Part shown: positions 15,435 through 28,978 of the stretch, in pieces
How the letters are laid out: the number at the start of each line of letters is the position of its first letter
How positions within the stretch are numbered: position 1 is the first letter of the stretch
From: a virus
Strand: one strand, 5' to 3'
DNA length: 30,451 bases
Virus record (IMG/VR): IMGVR_UViG_3300032084_001227
Coordinates: 1 to 30,451 of that record
Program-made: the position numbers and the translations under genes
Notes under the pieces: generated by a model
Told to the model about the DNA's origin: nothing
The model's database searches: none
Seen by the model: the letters and a program-made list of their open reading frames with translations, nothing else

Positions 15435-15644
15435 CTGTTCTTATATAGCTCGGAATTATTTAGGAGTCCCTGATTTTTTATAATTGTAGGAGTCCCTAAG
15501 TTTTTTAGGAGTCCCTTCTTGTAAGACACATGATTCCATATATGCGGGCAGCCCGTGGAACAGGAGTCCCTTTTTCGCGCTTTTTTCCGCTCCTTTTTTG
15601 GATTTTGGGCTTGCATCCCCTCGACCCTAGGTTATAATGGGGGC
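15435..15644. promoter_or_regulatory. Divergent control region with four AGGAGTCCCT repeats
   Basis: No convincing gene. The ten-base word AGGAGTCCCT occurs at 15462-15471, 15488-15497, 15507-15516 and 15562-15571, all in the same orientation. It has weak dyad symmetry (AGG....CCT), as a repressor or activator site might. The array sits between minus-strand ORFs ending upstream at 15434 and the plus-strand leaderless promoter at 15611-15638. T-runs lie between the copies. Confidence 0.5.
15611..15638 (+). promoter_or_regulatory. Sigma70-type leaderless promoter
   Basis: TTGCAT, 16 bp, TATAAT (15633-15638), then GGGGGC and the ATG at 15645. The predicted start of transcription coincides with the ATG. 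It opens the GC-rich plus-strand block. Confidence 0.65.
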
Positions 15645-15752
15645 ATGAAGCAAGCGACCAAGGACGAACTCATCCTCGCCACCATGGCCTCCTCCCCCAT
15701 CTTCGCCATCCTTGGCTTCCTCATCTGCTACAACCTGCCCTCCTGGGTTTGA
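15645..15752 (+). CDS. Small single-pass membrane protein, 35 aa
   Basis: MKQATKDELILATMASSPIF, continuing AILGFLICYNLPSWV. One hydrophobic helix follows a short charged head, so it is likely inserted in the inner membrane. The start is set by the promoter ending six bases upstream. Its TGA stop (15750-15752) is embedded in the -35 box TTGATA of the next gene. It could be a membrane-active early protein; nothing more can be said. Confidence 0.6.
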   Translation: MKQATKDELILATMASSPIFAILGFLICYNLPSWV

Positions 15753-15777
15753 TAGCAGGCGCACCACAGACTACTAT
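15749..15777 (+). promoter_or_regulatory. Sigma70-type leaderless promoter
   Basis: TTGATA (15749-15754), 17 bp, TACTAT (15772-15777), then ACACAC and the ATG at 15784. The -35 box contains the stop codon of the preceding gene. Confidence 0.75.
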
Positions 15778-15783
15778 ACACAC

Positions 15784-15948
15784 ATGGATAACACCTACGA
15801 TTGCACCTCTGACCTACCCGATAACTTCGACCCTGCGTGGGAGGAGGACATCGAGTGTGAGGAGTTCTACGATGGAGAGTATGCCCAGGATAGCGCATGG
15901 TGGGAGAGTGCATATGGTCCTGCTGATGATGGGGGCTGGGCCTTCTGA
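15784..15948 (+). CDS. Acidic small protein, 54 aa
   Basis: MDNTYDCTSDLPDNFDPAWE and on to a Gly/Trp-rich end (ADDGGWAF). Very acidic, with about one third Asp/Glu, and several Trp. Such acidic phage early proteins sometimes mimic DNA or bind host enzymes, but no family is recognised. The ATG was chosen because the promoter places transcription initiation exactly there; an upstream in-frame extension would lie inside the promoter. It is followed by repeat element A. Confidence 0.6.
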   Translation: MDNTYDCTSDLPDNFDPAWEEDIECEEFYDGEYAQDSAWWESAYGPADDGGWAF

Positions 15949-15998
15949 TACATAGGGGTGGGGGCGCGTGGTGAACTAGATTGATCCACAACCGCCCA

Positions 15999-16076
15999 CC
16001 CCTGCCATTATGGCAGGGGGCTGCCGCCCCCGCCATAAGTCCTTATATAGCAAGGGGTTACGATCACAAGTTTTCT
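15999..16076 (+). repeat. Intergenic repeat element, copy A
   Basis: Begins with a perfect 9-bp hairpin CCCCTGCCA-TTA-TGGCAGGGG. A GC-rich run and the box CATAAGTCCTTATATAGCAA follow. The element ends just before the next -35 box. The second half is more diverged than in copies B, C and E. Confidence 0.75.
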
Positions 16077-16087
16077 GCCCCTAGCTA

Positions 16088-16115
16088 TTGACCCACGGCT
16101 AGATTGTGCTACTAT
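16088..16115 (+). promoter_or_regulatory. Sigma70-type leaderless promoter
   Basis: TTGACC, 16 bp, TACTAT (16110-16115), ACACAC, ATG at 16122. It heads a run of tightly spaced genes up to 17026. Confidence 0.75.
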
Positions 16116-16121
16116 ACACAC

Positions 16122-16250
16122 ATGGATAAGAACCTCACCAACGCAGAGAAGGACAAGCAGTTCGACCGCTGGGCCCAGGCCCTTGAGGATAAGAAGGCCA
16201 TCGAGGATATGATCCTCTCCATCTTCGGTAAGTACCAGCAGGGTAAGTGA
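16122..16250 (+). CDS. Small charged helical protein, 42 aa
   Basis: MDKNLTNAEKDKQFDRWAQA, then LEDKKAIEDMILSIFGKYQQ. Predicted helical and amphipathic. First gene of the unit, leaderless by promoter position. Its TGA overlaps the next ATG (TGATG). No known family. Confidence 0.55.
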   Translation: MDKNLTNAEKDKQFDRWAQALEDKKAIEDMILSIFGKYQQGK

Positions 16251-16345
16251 TGGATCTCGAAGAGTACGAAGAAGAAATGAACGAGCAAGAGGGCGAGGAA
16301 GCTCTCTTCTTCTCTGGCTATCAGGATTGGGAGCTTTGGCGGTGA
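16250..16345 (+). CDS. Very acidic 31-aa peptide
   Basis: MDLEEYEEEMNEQEGEEALF, then FSGYQDWELWR. Coupled at both ends: its ATG shares a base with the upstream TGA, and its TGA (16343-16345) overlaps the GTG start of the lysozyme-like gene. It may serve mainly to couple translation of the next gene, or be a real acidic peptide. Confidence 0.45.
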   Translation: MDLEEYEEEMNEQEGEEALFFSGYQDWELWR

Positions 16346-16776
16346 GGTTTCTTCTTGCGCTCATTCTTTGCACTCCTGTCCTTGCGGATGGATACTCTGC
16401 TATTAGAGATAAAGATGGCAGGGCTAATGCGGACCTTTATCAGGATGCTATCGAAGTAAACATTCGCCCTGAGTGTAGAACTAAACTTGCTCCGATTGTT
16501 GCAGCTATTAGGTATGCTGAGAATGGTAAGAAGTACCAGTACGGTATCATCCACAAGAAGTGTAAGCCTGGATATCGTAACCAAGCTGGGTGGTGTGCTG
16601 CTACTGTTCAAAAGAACTATGATCGCTGGGTCAAAGCGGGTAGTAAGGGCGACTTTATTACTTTCCTTGGCAAGCGTTATTGTCCCGTTGGCGCTGATAA
16701 CGACCCGACTGGACTCAATAAACACTGGATCAAGAATGTAAAGTTTTACACGGCCAAGTTTCGGTCTACTATATAG
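16342..16776 (+). CDS. Secreted lysozyme-like protein (putative lysis/peptidoglycan hydrolase)
   Basis: 144 residues from a GTG start. A signal peptide MRFLLALILCTPVLA precedes the mature DGY. The core AIRYAENGKKYQYGI (about residues 55-69) has the Glu-Asn-Gly arrangement of lysozyme or transglycosylase folds, with Glu60 the likely catalytic residue. QAGWCAATVQKNYDRW, LGKRYCPVG and a W..NV-like end follow. Four Cys in the mature part could form disulfides in the periplasm. Export by a signal peptide would give a holin-independent endolysin or a wall-modifying enzyme. The GTG is preferred over upstream TTG codons because it opens the signal peptide, overlaps the previous stop as GTGA, and has GGGAG upstream. 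The lysozyme assignment is by motif, not by a named family. Confidence 0.6.
   Translation: MRFLLALILCTPVLADGYSAIRDKDGRANADLYQDAIEVNIRPECRTKLAPIVAAIRYAENGKKYQYGIIHKKCKPGYRNQAGWCAATVQKNYDRWVKAGSKGDFITFLGKRYCPVGADNDPTGLNKHWIKNVKFYTAKFRSTI
16745..16772 (+). promoter_or_regulatory. Possible internal sigma70-type promoter
   Basis: TTTACA (16745-16750), 16 bp, TACTAT (16767-16772), eight bases, ATG at 16781. It lies inside the end of the lysozyme-like gene. Transcription would start about two bases before the ATG. Confidence 0.5.
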
Positions 16777-16780
16777 GACC

Positions 16781-16921
16781 ATGGACACTCACAGTAAGAA
16801 CCTTGCCAAGCGTAGGAATCACCTTCGCAATATGGAGTTCGCCCGTCGAGCCCATAAGATCACCAGTAAGCGTAGAGAGGCTAATAGGAAAGCCTGTAGA
16901 GGTTGGAAGTACGATGGATAA
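16781..16921 (+). CDS. Basic small protein, 46 aa
   Basis: MDTHSKNLAKRRNHLRNMEF, then ARRAHKITSKRREANRKACR and GWKYDG. About a third of residues are Arg/Lys, so it may bind nucleic acid. It follows the lysozyme-like gene by four bases, behind the possible internal promoter. No family recognised. Confidence 0.55.
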   Translation: MDTHSKNLAKRRNHLRNMEFARRAHKITSKRREANRKACRGWKYDG

Positions 16922-16936
16922 CGAGGAGGTCATGCC

Positions 16937-17026
16937 TTGAAGATTATCTTTTGCCTGTTCATGTTATTTACTTATTCTCTGTGTATTGCTGCTGGGCAGG
17001 CTGATAGAGCAGCAGGCAGACCATAA
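16937..17026 (+). CDS. 29-aa hydrophobic/exported peptide from a TTG start
   Basis: Reads MKIIFCLFMLFTYSLCIAAG, then QADRAAGRP. A strong Shine-Dalgarno AGGAGGT (16924-16930) sits at ideal spacing from TTG at 16937. The competing ATG at 16932 gives only two residues. The sequence is a signal-peptide or single-TM stretch with a short polar tail. Lying near a lysozyme-like gene, it could be a small lysis protein, but the Cys is not in a canonical lipobox. Repeat element B begins at once after the stop. Confidence 0.5.
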   Translation: MKIIFCLFMLFTYSLCIAAGQADRAAGRP

Positions 17027-17094
17027 CCTGTCATTTTGGCAGGGGGCTGCCGCCGCCGCCGTAAGTCCTTATCCTGCAACGACTTAGGACGATT
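17027..17094 (+). repeat. Intergenic repeat element, copy B
   Basis: Hairpin CCTGTCA-TTT-TGGCAGG (one U.G pair), then a GC-rich stretch of CCG repeats, then GTAAGTCCTTATCCTGCAAC and GACTTAGGAC. GTCCT and AGGAC can pair. The element starts one base after the upstream stop codon and ends 19 bp before the next -35. Confidence 0.8.
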
Positions 17095-17113
17095 GGATTT
17101 TAGAGGTTTATGC

Positions 17114-17141
17114 TTGCAGGCGCGCCACATTGTGCTACTAT
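17114..17141 (+). promoter_or_regulatory. Sigma70-type leaderless promoter
   Basis: TTGCAG, 16 bp, TACTAT (17136-17141), ACACAC, ATG at 17148. Confidence 0.7.
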
Positions 17142-17147
17142 ACACAC

Positions 17148-17312
17148 ATGGAAGACATCACCATCGCGTGTGACCTCTGCGGGGATCAGTTTCCCTACCA
17201 CGCTCTCAGCAACTTCGGATGGGGCAACTGCCTCATGTGCGAAGACTGCGCCCAGGCTCAGGCTGATGAGTGGGACAGTTATGCAGAGCAGAAACACTCG
17301 ATGGACGCTTGA
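17148..17312 (+). CDS. Two-CxxC zinc-finger-like protein, 54 aa
   Basis: MEDITIACDLCGDQFPYHAL, then NFGWGNCLMCEDCAQAQADE. Two Cys pairs, CDLC and CEDC, about 20 residues apart suggest a zinc ribbon. A further Cys precedes the second pair. The acidic helical tail ends HSMDA. It may bind a host protein or nucleic acid as an early takeover factor; this is inferred. The start is fixed by the promoter; a longer in-frame reading would include promoter DNA. The stop TGA lies within the next -35 box. Confidence 0.65.
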   Translation: MEDITIACDLCGDQFPYHALSNFGWGNCLMCEDCAQAQADEWDSYAEQKHSMDA

Positions 17313-17337
17313 CAGACTAACACCTAGACACTACTAT
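17309..17337 (+). promoter_or_regulatory. Consensus sigma70-type leaderless promoter
   Basis: Perfect TTGACA (17309-17314), 17 bp, TACTAT (17332-17337), ACAGAC, ATG at 17344. The -35 contains the TGA that ends the preceding gene. Confidence 0.8.
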
Positions 17338-17343
17338 ACAGAC

Positions 17344-17577
17344 ATGAAGATCAACTCTCGCTACACCAACGGTCGTACCACCTTCGTCCCCGTCAACGGG
17401 TACTGCAACTCCAACTACTGCATGGTCCGCACTCAGCGTGCCGGAATCACCACCTACTCCATTGTGAACCAGCGGACTGGTGAGTTCCTCAACTCTGGTG
17501 TGACCCGTGACCACGCGGTCAAGGTCTGGAACCGCACGGGTATCTACGGCCTGCCTCCGATGCAACAATCTGCCTGA
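17344..17577 (+). CDS. Small protein, 77 aa, unrecognised
   Basis: MKINSRYTNGRTTFVPVNGY, with CNSNYCMVR, a beta-rich middle and NSGVTRDHAVKVWNRTGIYG near the end. Two Cys five residues apart. No family recognised. Codons end mostly in C or G, like its neighbours and unlike the structural block. It is followed by a structured segment and an intrinsic terminator, so it forms a one-gene unit. Confidence 0.6.
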   Translation: MKINSRYTNGRTTFVPVNGYCNSNYCMVRTQRAGITTYSIVNQRTGEFLNSGVTRDHAVKVWNRTGIYGLPPMQQSA

Positions 17578-17582
17578 CGAGG

Positions 17583-17644
17583 TGCTCGGGAGGGTAGCTA
17601 ACCAACCGAGTCTAAAGAAAGCGAGTGCCCATCGGGAACTGGGC
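17583..17644 (+). ncRNA. Structured 3' segment, possible small RNA
   Basis: Two hairpins in a row: CTCGG (17585-17589) with CCGAG (17606-17610), enclosing GGT/ACC, and GCCCA (17627-17631) with TGGGC (17640-17644). They lead straight into the terminator. They may be a structured 3' UTR or a stable released RNA. Confidence 0.3.
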
Positions 17645-17678
17645 AACCCTCGGGGGGTGCATCCCTCGGGGGTTTTTT
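17645..17678 (+). terminator. Intrinsic terminator
   Basis: AACCC (17645-17649) and GGGTT (17670-17674) close a GC-rich stem with an inner GGG/CCC pairing, followed by a run of T (six in all). It ends the 17344-17577 unit. Confidence 0.7.
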
Positions 17679-17692
17679 CTTACCCCCATATT

Positions 17693-17757
17693 CCCTGCCA
17701 TTTTGGCAGGGGCGGCCCGCCCTGCCCTAAGTCCTTATCCTGCAACGACTTACGACA
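17693..17757 (+). repeat. Intergenic repeat element, copy C
   Basis: Perfect 8-bp hairpin CCCTGCCA-TTT-TGGCAGGG, then a GC-rich run and CTAAGTCCTTATCCTGCAAC, then GACTTACGAC. TAAGTC/GACTTA is a perfect inverted pair here. It lies between a true terminator and the next promoter, so termination is not its only possible role. Confidence 0.8.
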
Positions 17758-17778
17758 GCATTTTTCCTCAAGAAAGGG

Positions 17779-17807
17779 TTGACGGGTGGTCGATAATAGA
17801 CTATCAT
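17779..17807 (+). promoter_or_regulatory. Sigma70-type near-leaderless promoter
   Basis: TTGACG, 17 bp, TATCAT (17802-17807), seven bases, ATG at 17815. An earlier in-frame ATG at 17806 overlaps the -10 and is unlikely to be used. Confidence 0.65.
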
Positions 17808-17814
17808 GATTCAC

Positions 17815-18306
17815 ATGAGCAACAGCATCACCGACTTCATCCCTGCCGCCAACAAGTACGCCAACCTGTACGGTGAGAAGCCTCACATCTCTGCCCACTA
17901 TGATCGGGACGATCTGGTGTCCGAGGCTTTCATCGCCCTGCACCGTGGCGAGCAAGCGTATGATCCCAACGCAGGCATGAAGTTCACCACCTACATGATC
18001 CAGCGCATCAAGTGGCGCATGATGGAGATTGACCGTGAGTGTGCCAAGAAGGCACTCAAGGGTGATGGTCTTCAGTTCTCTCTTGATTCTCTCAAGGAGG
18101 ACGATAACTCCGACGCTTGGCACCCTTCCTATGTTCAGGACCTCGACACTCTTTCTATCCTTGATTCTCTCTCTGAGCGTGACCGGGATATTGTTACTCG
18201 TCACACTCTGGATGGCGAATCTTATGCTTCTATCGCTGAAGACTACAATGTTTCTGGAATGACCATTTGCAACTGGCACAAGGCTGCTATCGAAAAGATG
18301 GCCTGA
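17815..18306 (+). CDS. Phage-encoded sigma factor (sigma70-type regions 2 and 4)
   Basis: 163 residues. The region 2-like part DRDDLVSEAFIALHRGEQAY (30-49) leads into DPNAGMKFTTYMIQRIKWRM (50-69), matching the core-binding and -10-recognition helices of small sigma factors. The C-terminal ~48 residues (LSERDRDIVTRHTLDGESYA onward, with MTICNWHKAAIEKM) match region 4, the -35-binding helix-turn-helix. Region 1.1 and a full region 3 are absent, as in group 4 and phage sigmas. It likely directs host RNA polymerase to a set of phage promoters. Which ones (the TATAAATA-type late sites or the leaderless set) cannot be told. It is a single-gene unit with repeat elements on both sides. Confidence 0.8.
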   Translation: MSNSITDFIPAANKYANLYGEKPHISAHYDRDDLVSEAFIALHRGEQAYDPNAGMKFTTYMIQRIKWRMMEIDRECAKKALKGDGLQFSLDSLKEDDNSDAWHPSYVQDLDTLSILDSLSERDRDIVTRHTLDGESYASIAEDYNVSGMTICNWHKAAIEKMA

Positions 18307-18325
18307 GGTTATTTCAATAAACTGA

Positions 18326-18391
18326 CCCTGCCAAAATGGCGGGGGCCGCCCGCCCCGCCGTAAGTCCTTATCCTGCAAGGGTTTAGGACGC
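18326..18391 (+). repeat. Intergenic repeat element, copy D
   Basis: CCCTGCCA-AAA-TGGCGGGG hairpin (the T.G pair and inverted loop, AAA instead of TTT, keep the pairing), then GC-rich DNA, then GTAAGTCCTTATCCTGCAAG and GGTTTAGGAC. GTCCT/AGGAC pairing is kept. Confidence 0.8.
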
Positions 18392-18411
18392 TAACTTTCC
18401 TCCCTTTTTTC

Positions 18412-18439
18412 TTGCCTCCTATCCTTCGCGTGCTATTAT
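18412..18439 (+). promoter_or_regulatory. Sigma70-type leaderless promoter
   Basis: TTGCCT, 16 bp, TATTAT (18434-18439), ACACCC, ATG at 18446. Confidence 0.7.
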
Positions 18440-18445
18440 ACACCC

Positions 18446-19234
18446 ATGGTTACCTTCATGGACAACAGCGAGATTGCGAAGCTCGCTCCTTCCGTCTTCG
18501 CTTCCAAGCCTTGCGACCGCATGTCGGATCGTTACAGCTTCGTCCCCTCCTCCAGCATTGTCGAGCAGTTCGATGCTCTCGGCTGGGGTGTTACTCGCGC
18601 TCTTCAGCCCAGGAGCTACAAGCGTTCGGCTGATAACAAGAAGCACACGCTGGGATTCCAGCGCAAGGATCTCAGCCTTCGCATCGCTGATCCTCGCAAC
18701 CCTTCGGAGGATATCTTCCCTGAGATCCTCGTCACCAACAGCAGCGATGGCTCGTCCTCGCTCAAGCTTGCTGCTGGCCTGTTTGCTCTGGTCTGCTCCA
18801 ATGGTCTGGTGATCCAGTCTCTCGACCTTGGCAGCTTCACTCAGCGCCACATGAACCTCTCCATGGATAGCGTGTCCGACGCGATCCAGTCCATGTCCGA
18901 TCTTGTTCCGAACATCTCGGACAACATCGAGCAGATGTCCAACCTTCGCCTGGACGAGGATGCCCAGCACGCTATGGCTCACGCTGGCAAGGTTGCTCGC
19001 TGGGGTGCTGCCTCTGAGATTGATAGCCGTATGCTGCTCACGGCTCGCCGTCAGGAGGATATCGGTTCCGACCTGTGGACCGTGTTCAACCGTGTGCAGG
19101 AGAACACCATCCGTGGTGGATTCAAGGGTGAGGGCCAGAAGCGTCAGGCTCGGGAACTCACCAACATCGACGCCCTCAGTCGCGTCAACCTCAACCTTTG
19201 GAACGCTGCCGAAGAGATCCTGGCAGCAGCCTGA
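18446..19234 (+). CDS. DUF932 family protein
   Basis: 262 residues. Matches the DUF932 family found in phages and plasmids: MSDRYSFVPSSSIVEQFDAL (about 30-49), then a segment on GWGVTRALQPRSYKR and HTLGFQRKDLSLRIAD, then LKLAAGLFALVCSNGLVI (~110-127). The C-terminal half is helical. The biochemical role of the family is not established; members are often near recombination or antirestriction genes. The start is set by the promoter six bases upstream. A GC-rich composition gives a long open frame on the other strand that is not a gene. Confidence 0.8.
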   Translation: MVTFMDNSEIAKLAPSVFASKPCDRMSDRYSFVPSSSIVEQFDALGWGVTRALQPRSYKRSADNKKHTLGFQRKDLSLRIADPRNPSEDIFPEILVTNSSDGSSSLKLAAGLFALVCSNGLVIQSLDLGSFTQRHMNLSMDSVSDAIQSMSDLVPNISDNIEQMSNLRLDEDAQHAMAHAGKVARWGAASEIDSRMLLTARRQEDIGSDLWTVFNRVQENTIRGGFKGEGQKRQARELTNIDALSRVNLNLWNAAEEILAAA

Positions 19235-19246
19235 GTCAAGGGTAAA

Positions 19247-19292
19247 GTCGGGAAACCGACAGCCGCAAGTCCTGGCCCCGCAAGGGGTTAGG
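19247..19292 (+). repeat. Two GNRA-loop hairpins and a partial repeat-element copy (E')
   Basis: GTCGG-GAAA-CCGAC (19247-19260), then CCCC-GCAA-GGGG (19276-19287) within CCGCAAGTCCTGGCCCCGCA and AGGGGTTAGGGC. The second part aligns with the right half of the intergenic element, directly upstream of full copy E, and keeps outer GTCCT/AGGGC pairing. It looks like a tandem half copy. Confidence 0.5.
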
Positions 19293-19293
19293 G

Positions 19294-19360
19294 CCTGCCA
19301 TTTTGGCGGGGGCCGCCCGCCCCGCCGTAAGTCCTTATCCCCCAACGACTTAGGACGATA
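19294..19360 (+). repeat. Intergenic repeat element, copy E
   Basis: CCTGCCA-TTT-TGGCGGG hairpin, GC-rich run, GTAAGTCCTTATCCCCCAAC and GACTTAGGAC. It ends eight bases before the next -35. Confidence 0.8.
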
Positions 19361-19368
19361 GGTTTCCC

Positions 19369-19396
19369 TTGATATTTTGGCAGATCGTGCTATTAT
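19369..19396 (+). promoter_or_regulatory. Sigma70-type leaderless promoter
   Basis: TTGATA, 16 bp, TATTAT (19391-19396), ACTTCC, ATG at 19403. Confidence 0.7.
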
Positions 19397-19402
19397 ACTT
19401 CC

Positions 19403-20059
19403 ATGCTAGTCTCTACTCGCTACCAGAAGTCGATCAAGCCCGTACCGTCTGACCATGTGTTTATGCTCAAGTCTGGCGGTAACAATAAAAAGCTCGGTCG
19501 TCGCATCAAAAAAACTGCGTGGGCTGGTGCCCCTATCTTTTCTCTCACTCTAACCGAACGGGATACTTGTCCTCGTTCCTGCCACCATTGGGAAGATTGC
19601 TATGGAAACAATATGCCTTTCGCTGCTCGCTATTCTGTCGCTGAGTATCGCAAGTTTATTTCTCGACTGGAATACGAGATCGACACGCTGATTGAAAAGC
19701 ATGGCAAGATTGCTATTCGTTTGCATGTTCTCGGTGATTTCTTCTCCGTGGAATATGTTACTTTCTGGGATGAGATGCTGTGCAAGCATCCTGGGCTCTT
19801 GGTCTGGGGTTATACTGCTCGCTCTGGCTGTGAGATTGACGCTCGCATTGTGCGTCTGAATAAGTCTTATCCTGAGCGTTGTGTTATCCGTTGGAGTCGC
19901 AATAACGATTCGTGCGTCGATCATATTCGCTATGCTGCGGACGAGTCTTTCAATGGCACTAGCTTCACTTGTCCTGAGCAGACTGGAAAAACTGATAGTT
20001 GTGGCACTTGTGGTGCCTGTTGGCAGTCTACTATGACTGTGAAGTTCCTGTCCCACTGA
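19403..20059 (+). CDS. Gp88-like Cys-rich phage protein
   Basis: 218 residues. Resembles the phage Gp88-like group: FSLTLTERDTCPRSCHHWED then CYGNN (about residues 47-70), RLHVLGDFFSVEYVTFWDEM (~106-125), GYTARSG, and a C-terminal Cys cluster (TCPEQTGKTDSCGTCGACW). The many Cys and the HVLGDFF core suggest a metal-binding or Fe-S fold, but the activity is unknown. Codons here use more T at third positions than the DUF932 gene. The start is fixed by the promoter. A 60-aa gene follows after two bases. Confidence 0.6.
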   Translation: MLVSTRYQKSIKPVPSDHVFMLKSGGNNKKLGRRIKKTAWAGAPIFSLTLTERDTCPRSCHHWEDCYGNNMPFAARYSVAEYRKFISRLEYEIDTLIEKHGKIAIRLHVLGDFFSVEYVTFWDEMLCKHPGLLVWGYTARSGCEIDARIVRLNKSYPERCVIRWSRNNDSCVDHIRYAADESFNGTSFTCPEQTGKTDSCGTCGACWQSTMTVKFLSH

Positions 20060-20061
20060 TT

Positions 20062-20244
20062 ATGAAAGTTCAAGTCTACTGGTCTGAGATTACTCATTAC
20101 ACTGGCGAACTAGAGATTCCTTATGATGATCTAGAATCATGTGAGGCACAAGAATATATTGAAAAGAATCTGCCCTATGATATTGCCAAAGATGTAGGGT
20201 CCGAGATTGAATATAACTCCATTGATTCCTTCGAGATAGACTAG
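20062..20244 (+). CDS. Small acidic protein, 60 aa
   Basis: MKVQVYWSEITHYTGELEIP, then an acidic helical part ending SIDSFEID. It begins two bases after the Gp88-like stop, so it is likely in the same transcript. No clear Shine-Dalgarno, so it probably depends on reinitiation. Element F begins at its stop codon. Family unknown. Confidence 0.55.
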   Translation: MKVQVYWSEITHYTGELEIPYDDLESCEAQEYIEKNLPYDIAKDVGSEIEYNSIDSFEID

Positions 20245-20310
20245 CCTGCCATTTTGGCAGGGGCCGCCCCGACCGCCGTAAACCCTTGTCAGACCTAGAC
20301 TTACGACCGC
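20245..20310 (+). repeat. Intergenic repeat element, copy F (diverged)
   Basis: Hairpin CCTGCCA-TTT-TGGCAGG is exact, but the second half (GTAAACCCTTGTCAGACCTA, GACTTACGAC) has drifted. It starts directly after the TAG stop and ends 19 bp before the next -35. Confidence 0.75.
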
Positions 20311-20329
20311 CACTTTCCTTGGATTCCCC

Positions 20330-20358
20330 TTGAAAGATAAGGCCTAGCATCCTACTAT
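20330..20358 (+). promoter_or_regulatory. Sigma70-type leaderless promoter
   Basis: TTGAAA (20330-20335), 17 bp, TACTAT (20353-20358), AATAGC, ATG at 20365. Confidence 0.7.
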
Positions 20359-20364
20359 AATAGC

Positions 20365-20616
20365 ATGACCGACAGGAAGAACTACTTCTCTCTCCTCTCC
20401 CATCTTGAGGACCAATATGCTGATAACGCATGGTGGCTCCAAGTTTACACTATCGACGAGGATGAGGAGCATGATTATCATATGTTGGAGTTTGCTAACT
20501 ATGATTCGATGTTGCGCTTCAAGCGTATGATCAACAATGTCCAAACTCCTAACACTGCACAAGATACTATCTTTGTTGGGGCTTATGGTCCTATCCTTGA
20601 AGTGGAGGAAAACTAA
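20365..20616 (+). CDS. Small protein, 83 aa, unrecognised
   Basis: MTDRKNYFSLLSHLEDQYAD, then NAWWLQVYTIDEDEEHDYHM, a mixed alpha/beta, acidic protein with a regular soluble-domain look. Leaderless by promoter position. Its TAA overlaps the next ATG (TAATG). No family recognised. Confidence 0.6.
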   Translation: MTDRKNYFSLLSHLEDQYADNAWWLQVYTIDEDEEHDYHMLEFANYDSMLRFKRMINNVQTPNTAQDTIFVGAYGPILEVEEN

Positions 20617-23610: not shown

Positions 23611-24095
23611 CTTGCACCTATTGTTATCTTGTAGGGTTGGGGTTCTGGTGTGTCTAGTATACAGGGGACCACAGCGATCACTAGACGATCATAACCATCC
23701 ACAGGGTAGATGGTCAGTTGTGTGCTGTGGCTCTGGCCCATAATAGTCTCTTCCTTAGGCCAACTCCAAATAATCTCCCCGTTTGTTTTCTTTCCCATCT
23801 CTCTTATAACTAAATGTGCCTCAGAGTTTTCTGGTCCCTCGTACTGTATCTCCACATTTATGGGAGCAAGGTTAGGATAGGTGATGTGGTAGTAATCATC
23901 CTCCAATAGATCCATGTCACCACAAATAACAACAGGATAGAAAGGTGCAACTCCAAGATAGGCGTAGTTACCTTCTGATAACTCTTCCTCAGATACACAG
24001 CCAGCATAACGATCTTGTGGGCTGTTATACTTACCCCAATCCTTATAAGGAATACAGCAAGTAAGTAAGATAAGCGGAACATACTTTAACTTCAT
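23607..24095 (-). CDS. Lipoprotein A, PPC-like beta domain
   Basis: 162 residues. The signal MKLKYVPLILLTC ends in a lipobox (ILLTC), with lipid anchoring at Cys13 or the next Cys. The mature part contains NYAYLGVAPFYPVVICG and an acidic DMDLLEDDYYHITYP stretch, then beta strands ending YKITIGAR. Shared landmarks with lipoprotein B (Y-[LV]-G, [IL]CG, acidic Asp pairs, Y-x-[IV]-x-I end) suggest an old duplication. No Shine-Dalgarno; a 7-bp GC hairpin lies just upstream. Confidence 0.65.
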   Translation of the reverse strand: MKLKYVPLILLTCCIPYKDWGKYNSPQDRYAGCVSEEELSEGNYAYLGVAPFYPVVICGDMDLLEDDYYHITYPNLAPINVEIQYEGPENSEAHLVIREMGKKTNGEIIWSWPKEETIMGQSHSTQLTIYPVDGYDRLVIAVVPCILDTPEPQPYKITIGAR

Positions 24096-24108
24096 ACCAT
24101 ATGATAGT

Positions 24109-24136: not shown

Positions 24137-24144
24137 GAAGGAGA

Positions 24145-24198: not shown

Positions 24199-24485
24199 AG
24201 CCCTGCTGCTCCCTTGCCGTAGTCAGAGTAGACAGCGATAGCCCCGTACTTGATGGCCTCATGAGCATCATCGTGACCCACATGCTTGCCGTTGGCCTTC
24301 TCAGGAAGCTCACGGCGAAGAGTCAGGTAGAGGTCGAGGAGATCCTTCACCTCCTCCTCCCAATGAGGGTTGAGATCAGAGAGAGTCTTGATAGCAGCAC
24401 CAACCAGCATGGATGCCTCATGGATCTTGAGGTCAGCGATGTCGTTGATGCCCTGAGGGAGTTTGTTGTAGTTGTTGATCTTCAT
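24195..24485 (-). CDS. Helical protein, 96 aa, unrecognised
   Basis: MKINNYNKLPQGINDIADLK, with ASMLVGAAIKTLSDL and WEEEVKDLLDLYLTLRRELP, then a His/Asp-rich GKHVGHDDAHEAIKYG. Predicted helical. Leaderless: the promoter ends six bases before the ATG. The -35 box lies inside the end of the preceding gene. Family unknown. Confidence 0.6.
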   Translation of the reverse strand: MKINNYNKLPQGINDIADLKIHEASMLVGAAIKTLSDLNPHWEEEVKDLLDLYLTLRRELPEKANGKHVGHDDAHEAIKYGAIAVYSDYGKGAAGL

Positions 24486-24491
24486 GTCGTT

Positions 24492-24520
24492 ATAGTAGTT
24501 CAGTTGAGGTCAGATGTCAA
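24492..24520 (-). promoter_or_regulatory. Consensus sigma70-type leaderless promoter
   Basis: Minus strand TTGACA (24520-24515), 17 bp, TACTAT (24497-24492), AACGAC, ATG at 24485. It overlaps the last codons of the 58-aa gene. The promoter is nearly identical over its full length to the one at 25128-25156. Confidence 0.8.
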
Positions 24521-24676
24521 GATGTTTCCAATAAGGTTTGCGGCTTTGTCCAGAAGATAAAGGTTCACATCTTCCTGATAGTGTGAAGGCATGTTGCCAC
24601 TCTCTTTGATCTCAATGTCAGAGGAGTTATACTCTTGCTCAAAAGCAACCAGTCGTTCTCGTAGATCGTCATTCAT
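24500..24676 (-). CDS. Small acidic protein, 58 aa (paralogue of the 70-aa protein)
   Basis: MNDDLRERLVAFEQEYNSSD, a Met-Pro turn, then DVNLYLLDKAANLIGNI. Aligns with the 70-aa protein at 24909-25121: both have DL/EL-x-ERL-x-A[FW], Y, S, MP, then D-[VI]-N-x-YL-x-D-x-A. The start is the ATG one base after the upstream TGA (TGATATG) rather than an upstream in-frame ATG. No known family. Confidence 0.6.
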   Translation of the reverse strand: MNDDLRERLVAFEQEYNSSDIEIKESGNMPSHYQEDVNLYLLDKAANLIGNILTSDLN

Positions 24677-24677
24677 A

Positions 24678-24824
24678 TCAGTTGTATTCTGCTTTGAATT
24701 CGTAAAGGTAAATGTCGTGTAGAAGGTTGAGCGCACGCTCAAGTTTCTCTTCGTCGTCCATGTCAGTCATGGCAAGATCCTTGTGGAACTGGGTAAGTTC
24801 CTTCCAGAGGTCGCGTCCTACCAT
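24678..24824 (-). CDS. Small acidic helical protein, 48 aa
   Basis: MVGRDLWKELTQFHKDLAMT, then MDDEEKLERALNLLHDIYLY and EFKAEYN. ATG overlaps the upstream TGA (TGATG) and follows GAGGAG. Amphipathic helices. It ends Asn-TGA like its three neighbours. Missed by length cut-offs but well supported by spacing and overlaps. Confidence 0.55.
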   Translation of the reverse strand: MVGRDLWKELTQFHKDLAMTDMDDEEKLERALNLLHDIYLYEFKAEYN

Positions 24825-24907
24825 CAGTTCTCCTCGTCAAAGTAGATCCACTCTTTAGTCACAGGATCTTGCTCTGCGATCAAGGTAATAGTTTCGGTAA
24901 AGCTCAT
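24824..24907 (-). CDS. 27-aa acidic peptide
   Basis: MSFTETITLIAEQDPVTKEW, then IYFDEEN. It lies exactly between two neighbours: its start follows the upstream TGA by one base and its stop overlaps the next ATG. Coding-like composition. Function unknown. Confidence 0.45.
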   Translation of the reverse strand: MSFTETITLIAEQDPVTKEWIYFDEEN

Positions 24908-24908
24908 A

Positions 24909-25121
24909 TCAGTTCCAGTATTCTTGTCCATCACGCATAAGTTGTTCTTCTTCACTCATCTCTTTGGCAAGCTCCTCAAGATGAATATCATACATGATAT
25001 CGAAAGCACAATCCATAAGATAAGAGTTAATGTCCTCTGCTGGCATGGTTTCTTCAAGCAAACTACTATCCTCGTAATCAGCCATCCATGCAGTCAGTCG
25101 CTCGTAGAGTTCTTTCTTCAT
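24909..25121 (-). CDS. Small acidic protein, 70 aa (paralogue of the 58-aa protein)
   Basis: MKKELYERLTAWMADYEDSS, then MPAEDINSYLMDCAFDIMYD and an acidic end (EMSEEEQLMRDGQEYWN). First gene of a four-gene run; leaderless by promoter position. Similar in order and motifs to the 58-aa protein two genes downstream, suggesting tandem duplication. Function unknown. Confidence 0.65.
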   Translation of the reverse strand: MKKELYERLTAWMADYEDSSLLEETMPAEDINSYLMDCAFDIMYDIHLEELAKEMSEEEQLMRDGQEYWN

Positions 25122-25127
25122 GCCTGT

Positions 25128-25156
25128 ATAGTAGGTCAGTCAGGGTCAGATGTCAA
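25128..25156 (-). promoter_or_regulatory. Consensus sigma70-type leaderless promoter
   Basis: Minus strand TTGACA (25156-25151), 17 bp, TACTAT (25133-25128), ACAGGC, ATG at 25121. The -35 box contains the TGA that ends the upstream 161-aa gene. Confidence 0.8.
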
Positions 25157-25638
25157 GTGTCGTGTCGGCCAGTCTTGTAGTGATCGAGCATAAGTCCAAC
25201 CCAAGAAGCATTGAAACCTTTGCTGTAGAAGTGACGCTGAACCTCATGCCTAAACATGGACCAGAAAGCGAGCCATTCAAGAATAGTTCCAGTCTTCTGG
25301 TCGCTATAATCATCATTAGGCCAACGATGTCCTAGCACATCGAACAGAGCAGTAGCACCACCATAGGGATCAATGTTTCCATCGTAATCTTGCTCGTTGC
25401 GATCCGCCACAAGGTTATAAAGGTCTTCGCAAGCATTCATAACTTTGAGTTGAATCTTCTCGGTCTTCATCAGATTGACCATACGATACAGAAACTCATC
25501 GTGGAGATCTGCCCTGGCAGAGTGATAAAGATTGTTCTCATCATGCCAGAAGTGAGCAGGTTCAACCTTCTGAGTGTGCATAGGTTCCATAGGAGTGTTG
25601 TTACGGGCGTCCTCTTCTTGTTGTTGCATACTAACCAT
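25153..25638 (-). CDS. Acidic protein, 161 aa, unrecognised
   Basis: Starts MVSMQQQEEDARNNTPMEPM, followed by a helical domain with ARADLHDEFLYRMVNLMKTE, VMNACEDLYNLVADR and a Trp-rich part ending HEVQRHFYSKGF and LDHYKTGRHDT. The start at 25638 is chosen because the promoter ends six bases earlier; an upstream in-frame ATG would lie beyond the promoter. The Trp/His/Asp content suits a folded cytoplasmic protein. No family recognised. Confidence 0.6.
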   Translation of the reverse strand: MVSMQQQEEDARNNTPMEPMHTQKVEPAHFWHDENNLYHSARADLHDEFLYRMVNLMKTEKIQLKVMNACEDLYNLVADRNEQDYDGNIDPYGGATALFDVLGHRWPNDDYSDQKTGTILEWLAFWSMFRHEVQRHFYSKGFNASWVGLMLDHYKTGRHDT

Positions 25639-25644
25639 GTGTGT

Positions 25645-25673
25645 ATAGTAGCAGAAGACCCAGCCTGTGTCAA
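25645..25673 (-). promoter_or_regulatory. Consensus sigma70-type leaderless promoter inside an inverted repeat
   Basis: Minus strand TTGACA (25673-25668), 17 bp, TACTAT (25650-25645), ACACAC, ATG at 25638. The -35 box sits in the loop of a perfect 13-bp inverted repeat. Confidence 0.8.
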
Positions 25674-25686
25674 GCTGGGTCTTCTG
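25652..25686. repeat. Perfect 13-bp inverted repeat around a -35 box
   Basis: CAGAAGACCCAGC (25652-25664) and GCTGGGTCTTCTG (25674-25686) with a 9-base centre that holds the minus-strand TTGACA. No T-run follows, so it may be an operator or cruciform as well as, or instead of, a terminator of the 34-aa gene upstream. Confidence 0.7.
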
Positions 25687-25691
25687 AAATT

Positions 25692-25796
25692 TCATGGCTT
25701 GTATCCAAACCAAGACTTTACGAAAGATAGGAATCCAAAGTTATTGGTGTACCTAACCAAAGCAAAGAGGTCGCTATTCTTCCTCAGATTCATCAT
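25692..25796 (-). CDS. Small protein, 34 aa
   Basis: MMNLRKNSDLFALVRYTNNF, then GFLSFVKSWFGYKP. Strong Shine-Dalgarno AAGGAGG about six to nine bases before the first of two ATGs, located inside the end of the acidic gene upstream (overlap of 23 bases). Aromatic and basic; possibly membrane-associated. Function unknown. Confidence 0.5.
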   Translation of the reverse strand: MMNLRKNSDLFALVRYTNNFGFLSFVKSWFGYKP

Positions 25797-25902
25797 CCTC
25801 TTCCTCCTTGGGGAGAGTCTTGAAAACTTCGTCTAGAACATCATTGATGAACTTTTCGATGTCGATGTCGTTATTTTTATCTTGGTCTTCGGCCATGTTC
25901 AT
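25774..25902 (-). CDS. Very acidic small protein, 42 aa
   Basis: MNMAEDQDKNNDIDIEKFIN, then DVLDEVFKTLPKEEEDDESE. About half of the residues are Asp/Glu, a DNA-mimic-like composition. Two starts are possible: ATG 25902, six bases after TATTAT (leaderless type), or ATG 25896, with GGAG eight bases upstream. The first is annotated. Function unknown. Confidence 0.55.
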   Translation of the reverse strand: MNMAEDQDKNNDIDIEKFINDVLDEVFKTLPKEEEDDESEEE

Positions 25903-25908
25903 GTCTCC

Positions 25909-25936
25909 ATAATAGTGTATCGGTGGTCCCTATTAA
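25909..25936 (-). promoter_or_regulatory. Possible sigma70-type leaderless promoter
   Basis: Minus strand TTAATA (25936-25931), 16 bp, TATTAT (25914-25909), GGAGAC, ATG at 25902. The -35 is weaker than in the other sites. Confidence 0.45.
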
Positions 25937-26011
25937 ATTTAACTCAGGAACTAACTCTCCTAGTATCGTCAGGAAAAGCTACCTCGCACACACGCAGGCT
26001 TCGAGTTAATT

Positions 26012-26218
26012 TTACTTGGGCTCCATCCTAAAAGGGATGGGATCTCCAAGTTGCATCGCTACCATATAAAGTTCGTCACGAATCTCACGAACCTTTTGGT
26101 AACTATCTCGATACGCACCTTCACTTCCAACACCTTTAGCGAATGCTAGATGTGCGTTCTGTGCGTACTCAAGCCTCTTCTCTAGTTCTTCTCGTTTTTT
26201 CCGTAGTTCAGCGCTCAT
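26012..26218 (-). CDS. Small coiled-coil protein, 68 aa
   Basis: MSAELRKKREELEKRLEYAQ, then helical to the end (YQKVREIRDELYMVAMQLGD). Highly charged helices suit a short coiled coil, perhaps a dimer. Good Shine-Dalgarno GGAGG six bases before the ATG. A gap of about 110 bp follows and contains the promoter of the acidic gene. Function unknown. Confidence 0.65.
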   Translation of the reverse strand: MSAELRKKREELEKRLEYAQNAHLAFAKGVGSEGAYRDSYQKVREIRDELYMVAMQLGDPIPFRMEPK

Positions 26219-26236
26219 GCTTGCCTCCGTTGCTTG

Positions 26237-26446
26237 TTATTTTGTATAAGGGAAATTCTTATCGTCCATCAGATTGAACAATGCGTTCATCTGTGCATGT
26301 AGTTTAGATGCTACATCGAGGTCAGGATGATCCTCAGGAATGTCCCCTATAATAGAGATCAGTCCCTCACAAATCAAATCAACTTCCCATTTCGAGAGGT
26401 TGACATCTCCGTTAACTTCTCCGTTGTGATCATTCCCAATCTTCAT
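26237..26446 (-). CDS. Small protein, 69 aa
   Basis: MKIGNDHNGEVNGDVNLSKW, then EVDLICEGLISIIGDIPEDH and a helical end (AQMNALFNLMDDKNFPYTK). The ATG lies 17 bases inside the upstream gene, after GGAGAC. An upstream in-frame ATG would enlarge that overlap with no ribosome site. Family unknown. Confidence 0.55.
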   Translation of the reverse strand: MKIGNDHNGEVNGDVNLSKWEVDLICEGLISIIGDIPEDHPDLDVASKLHAQMNALFNLMDDKNFPYTK

Positions 26447-26663
26447 TGTCTTCGTCTCCAAATGGATTATAGTCCCAGTTGATATACTTTTCAAACTCTT
26501 TGTCGTTCATTGTCTCGATATACTCATCTAGTATGTCTGGGATGATGAGGTAAACAAATTGTCCATCATCCACTCCCATATGTATTAGATGCTCGTTATC
26601 TCTGTAAAAGTTGAGATACCAGAAACGACTTTCCTTGGCTAAATCATTCAGATAAACTTTCAT
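26430..26663 (-). CDS. Small acidic protein, 77 aa
   Basis: MKVYLNDLAKESRFWYLNFY, then RDNEHLIHMGVDDGQFVYLI and an acidic end (YNPFGDEDNEDWE). Start chosen for its AGGG six bases upstream and the first beta strand. It overlaps the DUF4406 gene upstream by 20 bases. Unknown function. Confidence 0.55.
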   Translation of the reverse strand: MKVYLNDLAKESRFWYLNFYRDNEHLIHMGVDDGQFVYLIIPDILDEYIETMNDKEFEKYINWDYNPFGDEDNEDWE

Positions 26664-26994
26664 GCAGTTCCCTCTCATGATAAACTGTGATGCCAAGTTC
26701 TTCTGCAAGATACTTTTCTAGTCGTGCGCCCTTGCTAATGTGGTAGTTATCCATGAGGACAATAGCATCACACAGAGACAATGCACGCACAGCCTGTTTC
26801 ATATACCATGACCATCGCTCCATCTCGTCCATCTTGACGGGAGGAGCCATAAAGTCTAGTGGGTTATAAATCTGCTGTGGTAGGAACTTGCGTACCTTTG
26901 CTTCTAGATCAACAAATTTGACTTTTGCATCAGTCCAATCTACCTTTGAGATAGGACCAGCAAGGTAAACAATGTGACCATGTAGATTAACCAT
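26644..26994 (-). CDS. DUF4406-like nucleoside deoxyribosyltransferase-fold protein
   Basis: 116 residues. HIVYLAGPISKVDW at the N-terminus, IYNPLDFMAPPV in the middle, a WSWYMKQAVRALSLCDAIVL helix-strand, then NYHISKGARLEKYLAEELGI. This is the order seen in DUF4406 and nucleoside 2-deoxyribosyltransferase-like proteins, where the Glu of GA-x-LE is catalytic in true transferases. It may act in nucleotide salvage or binding. Start at 26994, with GGAG seven bases upstream; a longer in-frame reading lies inside the upstream gene. Confidence 0.7.
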   Translation of the reverse strand: MVNLHGHIVYLAGPISKVDWTDAKVKFVDLEAKVRKFLPQQIYNPLDFMAPPVKMDEMERWSWYMKQAVRALSLCDAIVLMDNYHISKGARLEKYLAEELGITVYHERELHESLSE

Positions 26995-27163
26995 CAATAC
27001 GCTCCACCTTAGGCTTTGATGCAAGGATAGTTAGTTCGTCTACACTCACCGTTTCAATGTGCCAACCTTTACTTTCTAGATCTTCTGTAAGCACAGCAAG
27101 CTGGCGGATATCATCTGCCGTCTTGATTGTCCACATCTTAGTAGTGTCACTTGTCTTCTTCAT
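26987..27163 (-). CDS. Small protein, 58 aa
   Basis: MKKTSDTTKMWTIKTADDIR, then QLAVLTEDLESKGWHIETVS and DELTILASKPKVERIDG. A compact alpha/beta protein. It overlaps the sigma-like gene upstream by 17 bases and the DUF4406 gene downstream by eight, the close packing typical of this block. No clear ribosome site and no known family. Confidence 0.55.
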   Translation of the reverse strand: MKKTSDTTKMWTIKTADDIRQLAVLTEDLESKGWHIETVSVDELTILASKPKVERIDG

Positions 27164-27731
27164 TGAGTTTACTCTGAATGTTGGTCATGCGTGTCTTGAC
27201 AATGTAAAATGATTTACCTGCTGCCCTGCTCAACGCATTGAAGTTGATGGTGCCATTCTCTCTAACACAGGTGGGATTGGCTACCAGTACCGATAGTAGA
27301 TCCCTTTCGTCCTGATTAAATTTATTATGGAAGTAATTAAATACCTCATCGTCACCATCTACAATACTGGTTGTATCATCAATAACCAGATCATCTTTAT
27401 TATCTATCGTGTCAATAGATGTAGGCATGAAGTTTTTGTACTTTGTAGCCTTGTTGCCCTTAAAGTTCTTGGCATTCCATAGCACAGTCTTAGTATACTG
27501 TTTAAACAGAGGACACTCAATCACTTCTTTAACTGCCATATCGGCAGGTGTGATCTTGTTCTTCTTGTAGTATCCGTTGATGCTGTTGATCGCTGCGATA
27601 TAAAGATCCTGTACATTCTCTTCATAATCACAGCACATAGGATCACCAGTAATCCTTTGGGCAATAAAACTAATCAGATCCCCGAACTTGTCTTGATAAA
27701 GTTCCCAGTCATCGTTAGCAATCTCGATCAC
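27147..27731 (-). CDS. Sigma-like regulatory protein (phage family)
   Basis: 194 residues from a GTG start that overlaps the DUF3310 stop (GTGA). DYEENVQDLYIAAINSINGY (~35-54) and YTKTVLWNAKNFKGNKATKY resemble region 2 of diverged phage sigma-like proteins. The C-terminal FNQDERDLLSVLVANPTC and FNALSRAAGKSFYIVKTRMT resemble region 4 with a helix-turn-helix. A similar protein type in marine phages is often labelled RNA polymerase sigma factor. It could be the late sigma that reads TATAAATA sites, the role of gp55 in T4. Homology is weak by eye. Confidence 0.45.
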   Translation of the reverse strand: MIEIANDDWELYQDKFGDLISFIAQRITGDPMCCDYEENVQDLYIAAINSINGYYKKNKITPADMAVKEVIECPLFKQYTKTVLWNAKNFKGNKATKYKNFMPTSIDTIDNKDDLVIDDTTSIVDGDDEVFNYFHNKFNQDERDLLSVLVANPTCVRENGTINFNALSRAAGKSFYIVKTRMTNIQSKLNEEDK

Positions 27732-28072
27732 TTAAAACACTCCACAAGACCATCCAGATAGAACTGTGCCTTCCTAAGATCCTCCTCACGCTTACCTTTG
27801 TAAGGACTTCTCATTAGATACTTCATGACATTCCCCATGAGATATCCTCGATACATCTCATTGGTTGGGCCTCCAAGTTTGGCCTCGATAACAGCAAGTG
27901 CTTCAATCCCTCCTACCATGTAGTGATCAGGATGATTCACCATATCAGGAGGATTGTCCTCGTAATCAGGTTCTCTAAAACCTTCGTGTGATTTAACTTT
28001 GGCAGTCATGTGACTGTAGTTAGCGTTGGCCCTCATGGCCTCATTGTCATAGACATCATAGTAATTGCTCAT
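27728..28072 (-). CDS. DUF3310 family protein
   Basis: 114 residues. The DUF3310 core is clear: DMVNHPDHYMVGGIEALAVI, then YLMGNVMKYLMRSPYKGKRE and EDLRKAQFYLDGLVECFK. Often labelled nucleotide kinase-like in phages, though activity is unproved. It starts at 28072 with GGAG seven bases upstream, inside the end of the dCMP deaminase gene. It lies among nucleotide-metabolism genes. Confidence 0.8.
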   Translation of the reverse strand: MSNYYDVYDNEAMRANANYSHMTAKVKSHEGFREPDYEDNPPDMVNHPDHYMVGGIEALAVIEAKLGGPTNEMYRGYLMGNVMKYLMRSPYKGKREEDLRKAQFYLDGLVECFK

Positions 28073-28457
28073 GGTATACTCCGCAGTTGGATAGTAGACA
28101 AAGACCGTCAATATTTCTATACTGACTTCGATAAATTACACGATTGATCCCTGCCTGCACGATAAGTCTAGCACAGCGAATACAAGGAGAAAGAGTGAGG
28201 TAAAGAGTAGCACCTTTGCAAGATTGGGAGGAGCGAGCGACTTTAAGTATTGCATTCTCTTCTGCATGGACAACTTCATCCTTTGTTTTACCATCTAGAC
28301 ATTCACAAACATTGGGCCTACCATAGCATGTGCCATTGTATCCCTCTGCGATGACGCTGTTATCTTTCACAATAACAGCACCAACCTTATTCCTCTTGCA
28401 ATAGGATCTTTTAGCTACTACCTCAGCTATTTGCAGATAACTCTCGTCGTGCTTCAT
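28056..28457 (-). CDS. dCMP/cytidine deaminase family protein
   Basis: 133 residues. Zinc-site motifs HAEENA (~72-77) and SPCIRCARLI (~97-106), with NKVGAVIVKDNSVIAEGYNG ahead of them, are those of deoxycytidylate deaminase (T4 cd). It would turn dCMP into dUMP to feed dTTP synthesis. Start at 28457 with GAGGAG upstream of the ATG, inside the preceding gene by 35 bases. Further Cys residues (CYGRPNVCEC) could bind a second zinc, as in T4-type enzymes. Confidence 0.9.
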   Translation of the reverse strand: MKHDESYLQIAEVVAKRSYCKRNKVGAVIVKDNSVIAEGYNGTCYGRPNVCECLDGKTKDEVVHAEENAILKVARSSQSCKGATLYLTLSPCIRCARLIVQAGINRVIYRSQYRNIDGLCLLSNCGVYHEQLL

Positions 28458-28944
28458 TGTACTCCTCGTAATCAAACCACATAGGCTTAGTGCTAGGGTT
28501 CCAGTTCCAAGTAGCGAACTTGCGCTTCTCTTGGCAGTAGAACCTACGATACGCCTCTACACAGTCATCACCTTTGAGGTAGTCAGGCATACATTGAGGA
28601 GGGTCCTGCCAGCCTGCAAGAGGGAGAGGAGGAGTGTGACACAGGATGTGACCTAGCTTGGTCCACGATGCGTGGTGCTTGCCTCGACGCTCACGGAACT
28701 GGTTGTTAAGCTCACGCCACAGTTCGTAGAGCCAAGCGTAGTGGTCATAGGATGCACGGGTCCAGATGGTGCTGGGATGATTCTTGTGTGCGATCTTGTA
28801 GCATTGGTCGGCATACGGGCTGTCAGTCACACGATGAGCCGTGGACATGAGTTGAGCGTACTCGATGATCATCTTGCTACAATGTTGATCACAATGCCAC
28901 TCAGCGCAAACACGCGGGTTTTTTGCAAGATAAAAGATGTTCAT
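28423..28944 (-). CDS. Conserved phage protein with HC..KMI...QL motif, function unknown
   Basis: 173 residues. MNIFYLAKNPRVCAEWHCDQ then HCSKMIIEYAQLMSTAHR, NHPSTIWTRASYDHYAWLYE and a later YRRFYCQEKRKFATWNW. These blocks match a widespread but uncharacterised phage protein type. The many His, Cys and Trp suggest a metal site. Leaderless by promoter position; the first gene of the nucleotide-metabolism run. Its promoter's -35 overlaps the start codon of the divergent gene at 28972. Confidence 0.7.
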   Translation of the reverse strand: MNIFYLAKNPRVCAEWHCDQHCSKMIIEYAQLMSTAHRVTDSPYADQCYKIAHKNHPSTIWTRASYDHYAWLYELWRELNNQFRERRGKHHASWTKLGHILCHTPPLPLAGWQDPPQCMPDYLKGDDCVEAYRRFYCQEKRKFATWNWNPSTKPMWFDYEEYNEARRELSANS

Positions 28945-28950
28945 GGGTAT

Positions 28951-28978
28951 ATAGTAGCAGGTGATTTACCAATGTCAA
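28951..28978 (-). promoter_or_regulatory. Consensus sigma70-type leaderless promoter
   Basis: Minus strand TTGACA (28978-28973), 16 bp, TACTAT (28956-28951), ATACCC, ATG at 28944. It shares bases with the plus-strand ATG at 28972. Confidence 0.75.

Follow-up and report, generated by a model that had tools for sequence, protein, structure and literature searches.

Where do transcription and translation begin at a series of phage genes whose ATG lies almost directly behind a promoter -10 box? The question is raised by the right part of IMGVR_UViG_3300032084_001227, an IMG/VR virus record of 30,451 bases that was analysed over its whole length (hereafter, the window). Between 15611 and 28978, sigma70-type promoters on both strands have a -10 hexamer ending 6, sometimes 7, nucleotides (nt) before a start codon, and from this arrangement we consider it highly probable that transcription starts at the A of the ATG, so that leaderless mRNAs would head the units. 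An initial annotation had proposed about fifteen such promoters, and its hexamers and start codons were correctly placed at all 15 sites, each with a C before the ATG. Fourteen of them stand; the site at 16781 is doubtful, its -10 box being absent in some orthologs. The sites are listed below with their open reading frames (ORFs; lengths in amino acids, aa) and their preservation in relatives, chief among them IMGVR_UViG_3300025093_000013 (112,473 bases; G001, the 112-kilobase (kb) relative); other G and L numbers are our handles. Except where marked, each line is a predicted leaderless promoter.

15611..15647, plus strand: TTGCAT-N16-TATAAT-gggggc-ATG(15645), 35-aa ORF; orthologs L004 and L005 read TACAAT-N7-ATG.
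15749..15786, plus strand: TTGATA-N17-TACTAT-acacac-ATG(15784), 54-aa ORF; kept in L003, L004, L005, L009, L018 and the 112-kb relative.
16088..16124, plus strand: TTGACC-N16-TACTAT-acacac-ATG(16122), 42-aa ORF; no ORF ortholog found.
16767..16783, plus strand: doubtful site, TACTAT-N8-ATG(16781); TACTAT overlaps the end of the upstream ORF.
17114..17150, plus strand: TTGCAG-N16-TACTAT-acacac-ATG(17148), 54-aa ORF; kept in G001, L005, L031 and G004.
17309..17346, plus strand: TTGACA-N17-TACTAT-acagac-ATG(17344), 77-aa ORF; kept in G001, L005, L031 and G007.
17779..17817, plus strand: TTGACG-N17-TATCAT-gattcac-ATG(17815), sigma factor; kept at 41-94% protein identity.
17815..18306, plus strand: gene of the phage sigma-70 family factor, 163 aa (Sigma70_r2, Sigma70_r4, phrog_351, TIGR02937).
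18412..18448, plus strand: TTGCCT-N16-TATTAT-acaccc-ATG(18446), DUF932 protein; kept in G001, G004 and G007.
19369..19405, plus strand: TTGATA-N16-TATTAT-acttcc-ATG(19403), GP88-like protein; kept in G001, G004, G007 and G013.
20330..20367, plus strand: TTGAAA-N17-TACTAT-aatagc-ATG(20365), 83-aa ORF; no ortholog found.
24093..24106, minus strand: extra candidate absent from the initial annotation, TATCAT-atggt-ATG(24095); TATCAT-N5-ATG also at 37718 of G001.
24483..24520, minus strand: TTGACA-N17-TACTAT-aacgac-ATG(24485), 96-aa ORF; kept in G001.
25119..25156, minus strand: TTGACA-N17-TACTAT-acaggc-ATG(25121), 70-aa ORF; a similar gene of G001 is unit-internal and has no promoter.
25636..25673, minus strand: TTGACA-N17-TACTAT-acacac-ATG(25638), 161-aa ORF; TACTAT-N6-ATG kept in G001 (36% identity).
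25900..25936, minus strand: TTAATA-N16-TATTAT-ggagac-ATG(25902), weak -35, 42-aa ORF; kept in G001 (31% identity).
28942..28978, minus strand: TTGACA-N16-TACTAT-ataccc-ATG(28944), phrog_624 protein; kept in G001 (89%) and G002 (32% identity).

The gap between -10 box and ATG is 6 nt at 13 of the 15 sites of the initial annotation, 7 nt at 17815 and 8 nt at 16781. A -35 box had been claimed for every site; the spacing of 16-17 holds at the sites recovered by pattern search and also at 17148 (TTGCAG, 16 nt), but 25902 has only the weak TTAATA. At 16781, no -10 box was found in the orthologs of G004, L033 and L050, and a -10-like hexamer lies 8 nt away in those of L005, L007, L013 and the 112-kb relative; judged by these comparisons, the site is probably not a promoter. 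In the 112-kb relative, a near-identical copy of promoter 16122 is fused to the gene that stands second in the corresponding unit of the window.

The fixed distance is far from random. Over the whole window, TA[CT]TAT was found 13 times at a gap of 6 nt before an ATG and 0-4 times at each other gap from 0 to 30. Within 15611-28978, TAYTAT-N6-ATG occurred 13 times against 0.31 expected from 500 dinucleotide-preserving shuffles (maximum 2), TAYTAT-N5-CATG 12 times against 0.08, and TTG-N16/17-TANNAT-N6-ATG 12 times against 0.09 (maximum 3), and positions 1-15610 contained no copy of any of the three. A strict TTGACA-N17-TATNAT-N5-CATG was too narrow a pattern and gave no match. The count against shuffled sequence that the initial annotation had suggested for the genome and its relatives was thus strongly positive, the relatives having arrays of their own.

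Across orthologs 32-94% identical in protein, TTG-N16/17-TANNAT-N5/6-C-ATG was retained and the spacers had diverged. The -10 box adjoining the ATG was kept in orthologs of the sigma factor (41-94%), the DUF932 protein (57-94%) and the GP88-like protein (55-85% identity); the ortholog of the phrog_624 protein in G013 (IMGVR_UViG_3300005613_000105, 48 kb; 67% identity) has no -10 box adjoining its ATG. Furthermore, four more divergent metagenomic phages, G002, G007, G013 and L148, carry independent arrays of the same layout: TATAAT precedes ATG at gap 6 14 times in G013 (0-3 at other gaps) and 6 times in G002 (0-2 at other gaps), and L148 has several further sites, including a DUF932 gene (35% identity) that is also predicted to be leaderless. 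Among DUF932 genes of environmental phages, only 5 of 78 showed a -10-like box 5-8 nt before the ATG, namely three from the clade of the window, L148 and an AT-rich, probable chance match. Since the layout is missing from most phages that have a related DUF932 gene, it is a trait of the clade, not of the gene family. The order of modules differs between 17148-20365 of the window and 45149-41966 of the 112-kb relative, where the GP88-like unit has moved and the sigma-factor and DUF932 units are exchanged; promoter and gene therefore appear to travel together as a module.

Searching the phage loci by pattern yielded 72 distinct sequences, a few of them likely chance matches, with a gap of 6 nt in 62 and of 7 nt in 10, and a C at -1 in 64. 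The dominance of gap 6 and C(-1) is as expected if the A of the ATG is the first transcribed base, and it makes improbable, though of the alternatives the best surviving, that transcription starts 1-5 nt upstream of the ATG and leaves ultra-short leaders of a few untranslated bases with no Shine-Dalgarno (SD) site, a reading to which the 7-nt gaps, the occurrence of purines at -2, -4 and -6 and the gaps of 5-8 nt in a second, -35-less promoter class (see below) would lend themselves.

Are these ATGs the true translation starts? The 14 leaderless starts have no SD site, with a mean anti-SD energy of +0.5 kcal/mol (-1.6 at random positions), compared to -5.9 kcal/mol for 14 internal starts of the units (Mann-Whitney p = 1e-4), and internal genes mostly carry SD sites, in agreement with what the initial annotation had said of genes further along the units. 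Between the window and the 112-kb relative, changes at codon positions 1/2/3 after the ATG were 12/11/70 at 18446, 5/4/23 at 17344, 3/2/25 at 24485 and 20/12/52 at 17815, these four genes being the informative ones, since pairs differing in length were compared ungapped and are uninformative. The excess at third positions indicates that the four frames are coding. Moreover, most protein alignments with orthologs begin at residue 1 of the promoter-adjoining ATG, and where orthologs of the sigma factor have 2 or 4 extra N-terminal codons, the promoter has shifted along with the ATG and the gap is still 6-7 nt. These three observations make it very unlikely that the ATG beside the -10 box is merely a promoter feature with translation beginning downstream, although several of the ORFs are short (35-54 aa) and those at 16122 and 20365 have no ortholog. 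In the 17344 ortholog of G004 and G005, whose promoter reads TACTATacactcATAAGGAAACTTCCC-ATG, ATA stands in place of the leaderless ATG, and AAGGA precedes the next ATG. That the layout arose by chance, or by duplication of one promoter-plus-ATG repeat with no functional coupling of -10 box and ATG, is hardly credible: several copies do share TACTATACACACATG and neighbouring modules a 74-nt upstream repeat, but the gap is retained despite diverged spacers, -10 variants and six bases, between the TACTAT and TATAAT arrays, and at 32-41% protein identity.

Together, the fixed gap, the C(-1)A(+1) context, the absence of SD sites at these starts only, the conserved distance and the co-moving promoter support transcription from the A of the ATG, as initially interpreted. 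We propose that a sigma70-type holoenzyme, probably that of the host, recognises TTGNNN-N16/17-TAYTAT or TATAAT and initiates transcription at the A of the ATG (C-1/A+1). Each promoter would head a short transcription unit, with the first gene translated from a 5'-terminal AUG without an SD site and later genes translated from SD sites or by overlap. One unit encodes the phage sigma factor, which may act at TATAAT promoters without a -35 box in other parts of the genome. Judged from the sigma70-like -35/-10 boxes, the gene content and the position, on which alone the timing rests, these units are probably early; host RNA polymerase probably transcribes them, and the phrase "whole early programme" used in the initial annotation seems fair for 15611-28978 with timing so deduced; elsewhere in the 112-kb relative there is the second class. 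Some points weigh against leaderless transcription and translation. The mRNA 5' ends, leaderless translation and early timing, like the role of the sigma factor, are read from sequence; at the acacacATG sites transcription might instead begin at A(-2), leaving a 2-nt leader; leaderless translation would require a host capable of it; and about 385 kb sampled from five genomes of Phycisphaerae, a weak host lead taken up below, had no clear -10/ATG peak.

The second class was found in the 112-kb relative outside the leaderless region, where TATAAT lies 5-8 nt before an ATG with no evident -35 box 10 times against 0.37 expected. Its sites include 11102, 30094, 55381, 60651, 64478, 107792 and 111484, and the genes that such promoters head include ORFs of 955 and 738 aa. 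By their position, these promoters are predicted to leave little or no leader, and the phage sigma factor may serve them. A tblastn search with this factor gave no match in named phages.

Six of the plus-strand promoters each have, upstream, one copy of a 74-nt intergenic repeat made up of a CTGCCATTTTGGCAG hairpin, a GC-rich stretch and, as its core, the 25-nt imperfect dyad TAAGTCCTTATCCTGCAACGACTTA. The copies are listed with the distance from dyad end to -10 box.

16002-16075, dyad 16036..16060, plus strand: upstream of promoter 16122, 49 nt.
17028-17101, dyad 17062..17086, plus strand: upstream of promoter 17148, 49 nt.
17694-17767, dyad 17728..17752, plus strand: upstream of promoter 17815, 49 nt.
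18327-18400, dyad 18361..18385, plus strand: upstream of promoter 18446, 48 nt.
19294-19367, dyad 19328..19352, plus strand: upstream of promoter 19403, 38 nt.
20245-20318, degenerate dyad 20278..20302, plus strand: upstream of promoter 20365, about 50 nt; repeat family D1.

The dyad is also present in G001, G013, G002, G004 and G006, and the corresponding distances are 49-50 or 59 nt in G013, 41-42 or 63 nt in G002 and 62 nt in G006. Within a genome the distances differ by close to one or two turns of the helix, as would be expected of a bound protein more than of a terminator, the cases being few and related by descent. An intrinsic terminator was not favoured: the copies of G013 are followed by an A run, and T-runs elsewhere are irregular. 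In G004 (L069, about 14497-14620), the dyad and a promoter TTGCAT..TATAAT with no ATG at the expected place lie between the orthologs of 17344 and of the sigma factor; the product of this ATG-less promoter is possibly a small RNA. Just before the plus-strand cluster, four copies of AGGAGTCCCT were observed (15462-15471, 15488-15497, 15507-15516 and 15562-15571), and the same element occurs in the 112-kb relative (L001, about 6465-6520) and in the G013 phage (L073); the array is possibly an origin or an operator array.

The dyad also gave the host lead. Genome contigs searched for an exact 18-mer of it gave 10 matches, near the chance number (about 7.5 by our estimate). One of the 10, on a contig from a Phycisphaerae metagenome-assembled genome (L083, 1402-1425, minus strand), extends to about 32 nt of an intergenic region identical to the phage dyad copies, and dyad-like palindromes were found in 8 of 120 Phycisphaerae genomes, the query genome included, versus 1 of 100 from Pseudomonadota. 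These matches are a weak lead, suggestive only, to a planctomycete (Phycisphaerae) host.

As to the phage itself, the left part of the window matches profiles of a T4-type portal (Portal_T4, 6.7e-74) and a terminase (Terminase_6N, 3.8e-12), and the right part encodes many short ORFs, the sigma-70 family protein, the DUF932 protein, nucleases and a 4HBT thioesterase. The 112-kb relative, whose terminase is 92% identical to that of the window, encodes a PolA-type DNA polymerase (in two ORFs), ThyX, ribonucleotide reductase, gp32, RecA, sheath and T4 baseplate proteins. With the portal and terminase in the window and gp32, sheath and T4_baseplate in the relative, the phage is T4-like, resembling T4 (NC_000866) in these components; in positions 1-50000 of T4, -10 boxes are not enriched at gap 6. 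Megablast of the window against named phages gave no match, no close cultured relative was found (terminases at most about 36% identical among the matches listed), and an Rfam search gave no match in the window. At 14037-14040, the terminase gene (minus strand, start 14039) and a glycosyltransferase-like gene (plus strand, start 14038) are divergent with overlapping start codons, an overlap likewise present at 49649/49650 of the 112-kb relative.

Leaderless phage mRNAs have precedents. Lambda cI, whose mRNA begins at the AUG, had been named as one in the initial annotation; it is a single promoter, whereas here a series heads most units of a region, and a stronger precedent is Thermus phage phiYS40. 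As summarised in PMC3594737, citing Sevostyanova et al. 2007, most middle and late mRNAs of phiYS40 are leaderless, with IF2 raised and IF3 lowered. By that account, the two phages share a large class of mRNAs without leaders and SD sites, as predicted here, but in phiYS40 the class is middle/late and the host is Thermus, different from the sigma70-type -35/-10 promoters of probably early units in the window. Among bacteria, Actinobacteria and Deinococcus-Thermus commonly have leaderless genes (PMC3160421), and in Deinococcus radiodurans about a third of ORFs are preceded by a -10 motif at 6-7 bp (PMC12340547). The geometry of -10 box and start codon is the same, but there the genes are cellular and the promoter is often no more than a TANNNT, and the promoters here mostly have a good TTGNNN -35 box and are confined to one phage genome region. 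Our literature search, with most subscription journals outside it and an earlier report therefore possible, found no conserved phage programme of sigma70-type leaderless promoters. Scattered leaderless phage genes and phiYS40 are known; what appears to be new, as predicted from these genomes, is a conserved phage programme with ordinary sigma70-type promoters.

Leaderless translation is usually regarded as ancestral or of minor importance. A clade of environmental phages whose probable early units begin in this way, with the layout kept at protein identities as low as about 32-41%, would offer a natural setting in which to ask when a leaderless mRNA beats a leadered one. It would also allow asking whether phages alter the ribosome to favour leaderless mRNAs; no initiation factor or ribosomal protein was among the phage proteins scanned (those of the 112-kb relative). 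We suggest tentatively, as an idea with somewhat less than an even chance, that most unit heads of the clade are leaderless, counting both the sigma70-type and the -35-less TATAAT promoters, so that the phage may need or impose a host translation state favouring the 5'-terminal AUG, and that the dyad, at helical-turn-like distances (38, 48-50, 59; 41-42, 63 nt), could be the site of a regulator of the programme. Annotation is affected as well: the -10 box could be used to fix where short phage genes start, and such genes may escape gene finders that look for an SD site. How surprising a leaderless programme is biologically would depend on the identity of the host.

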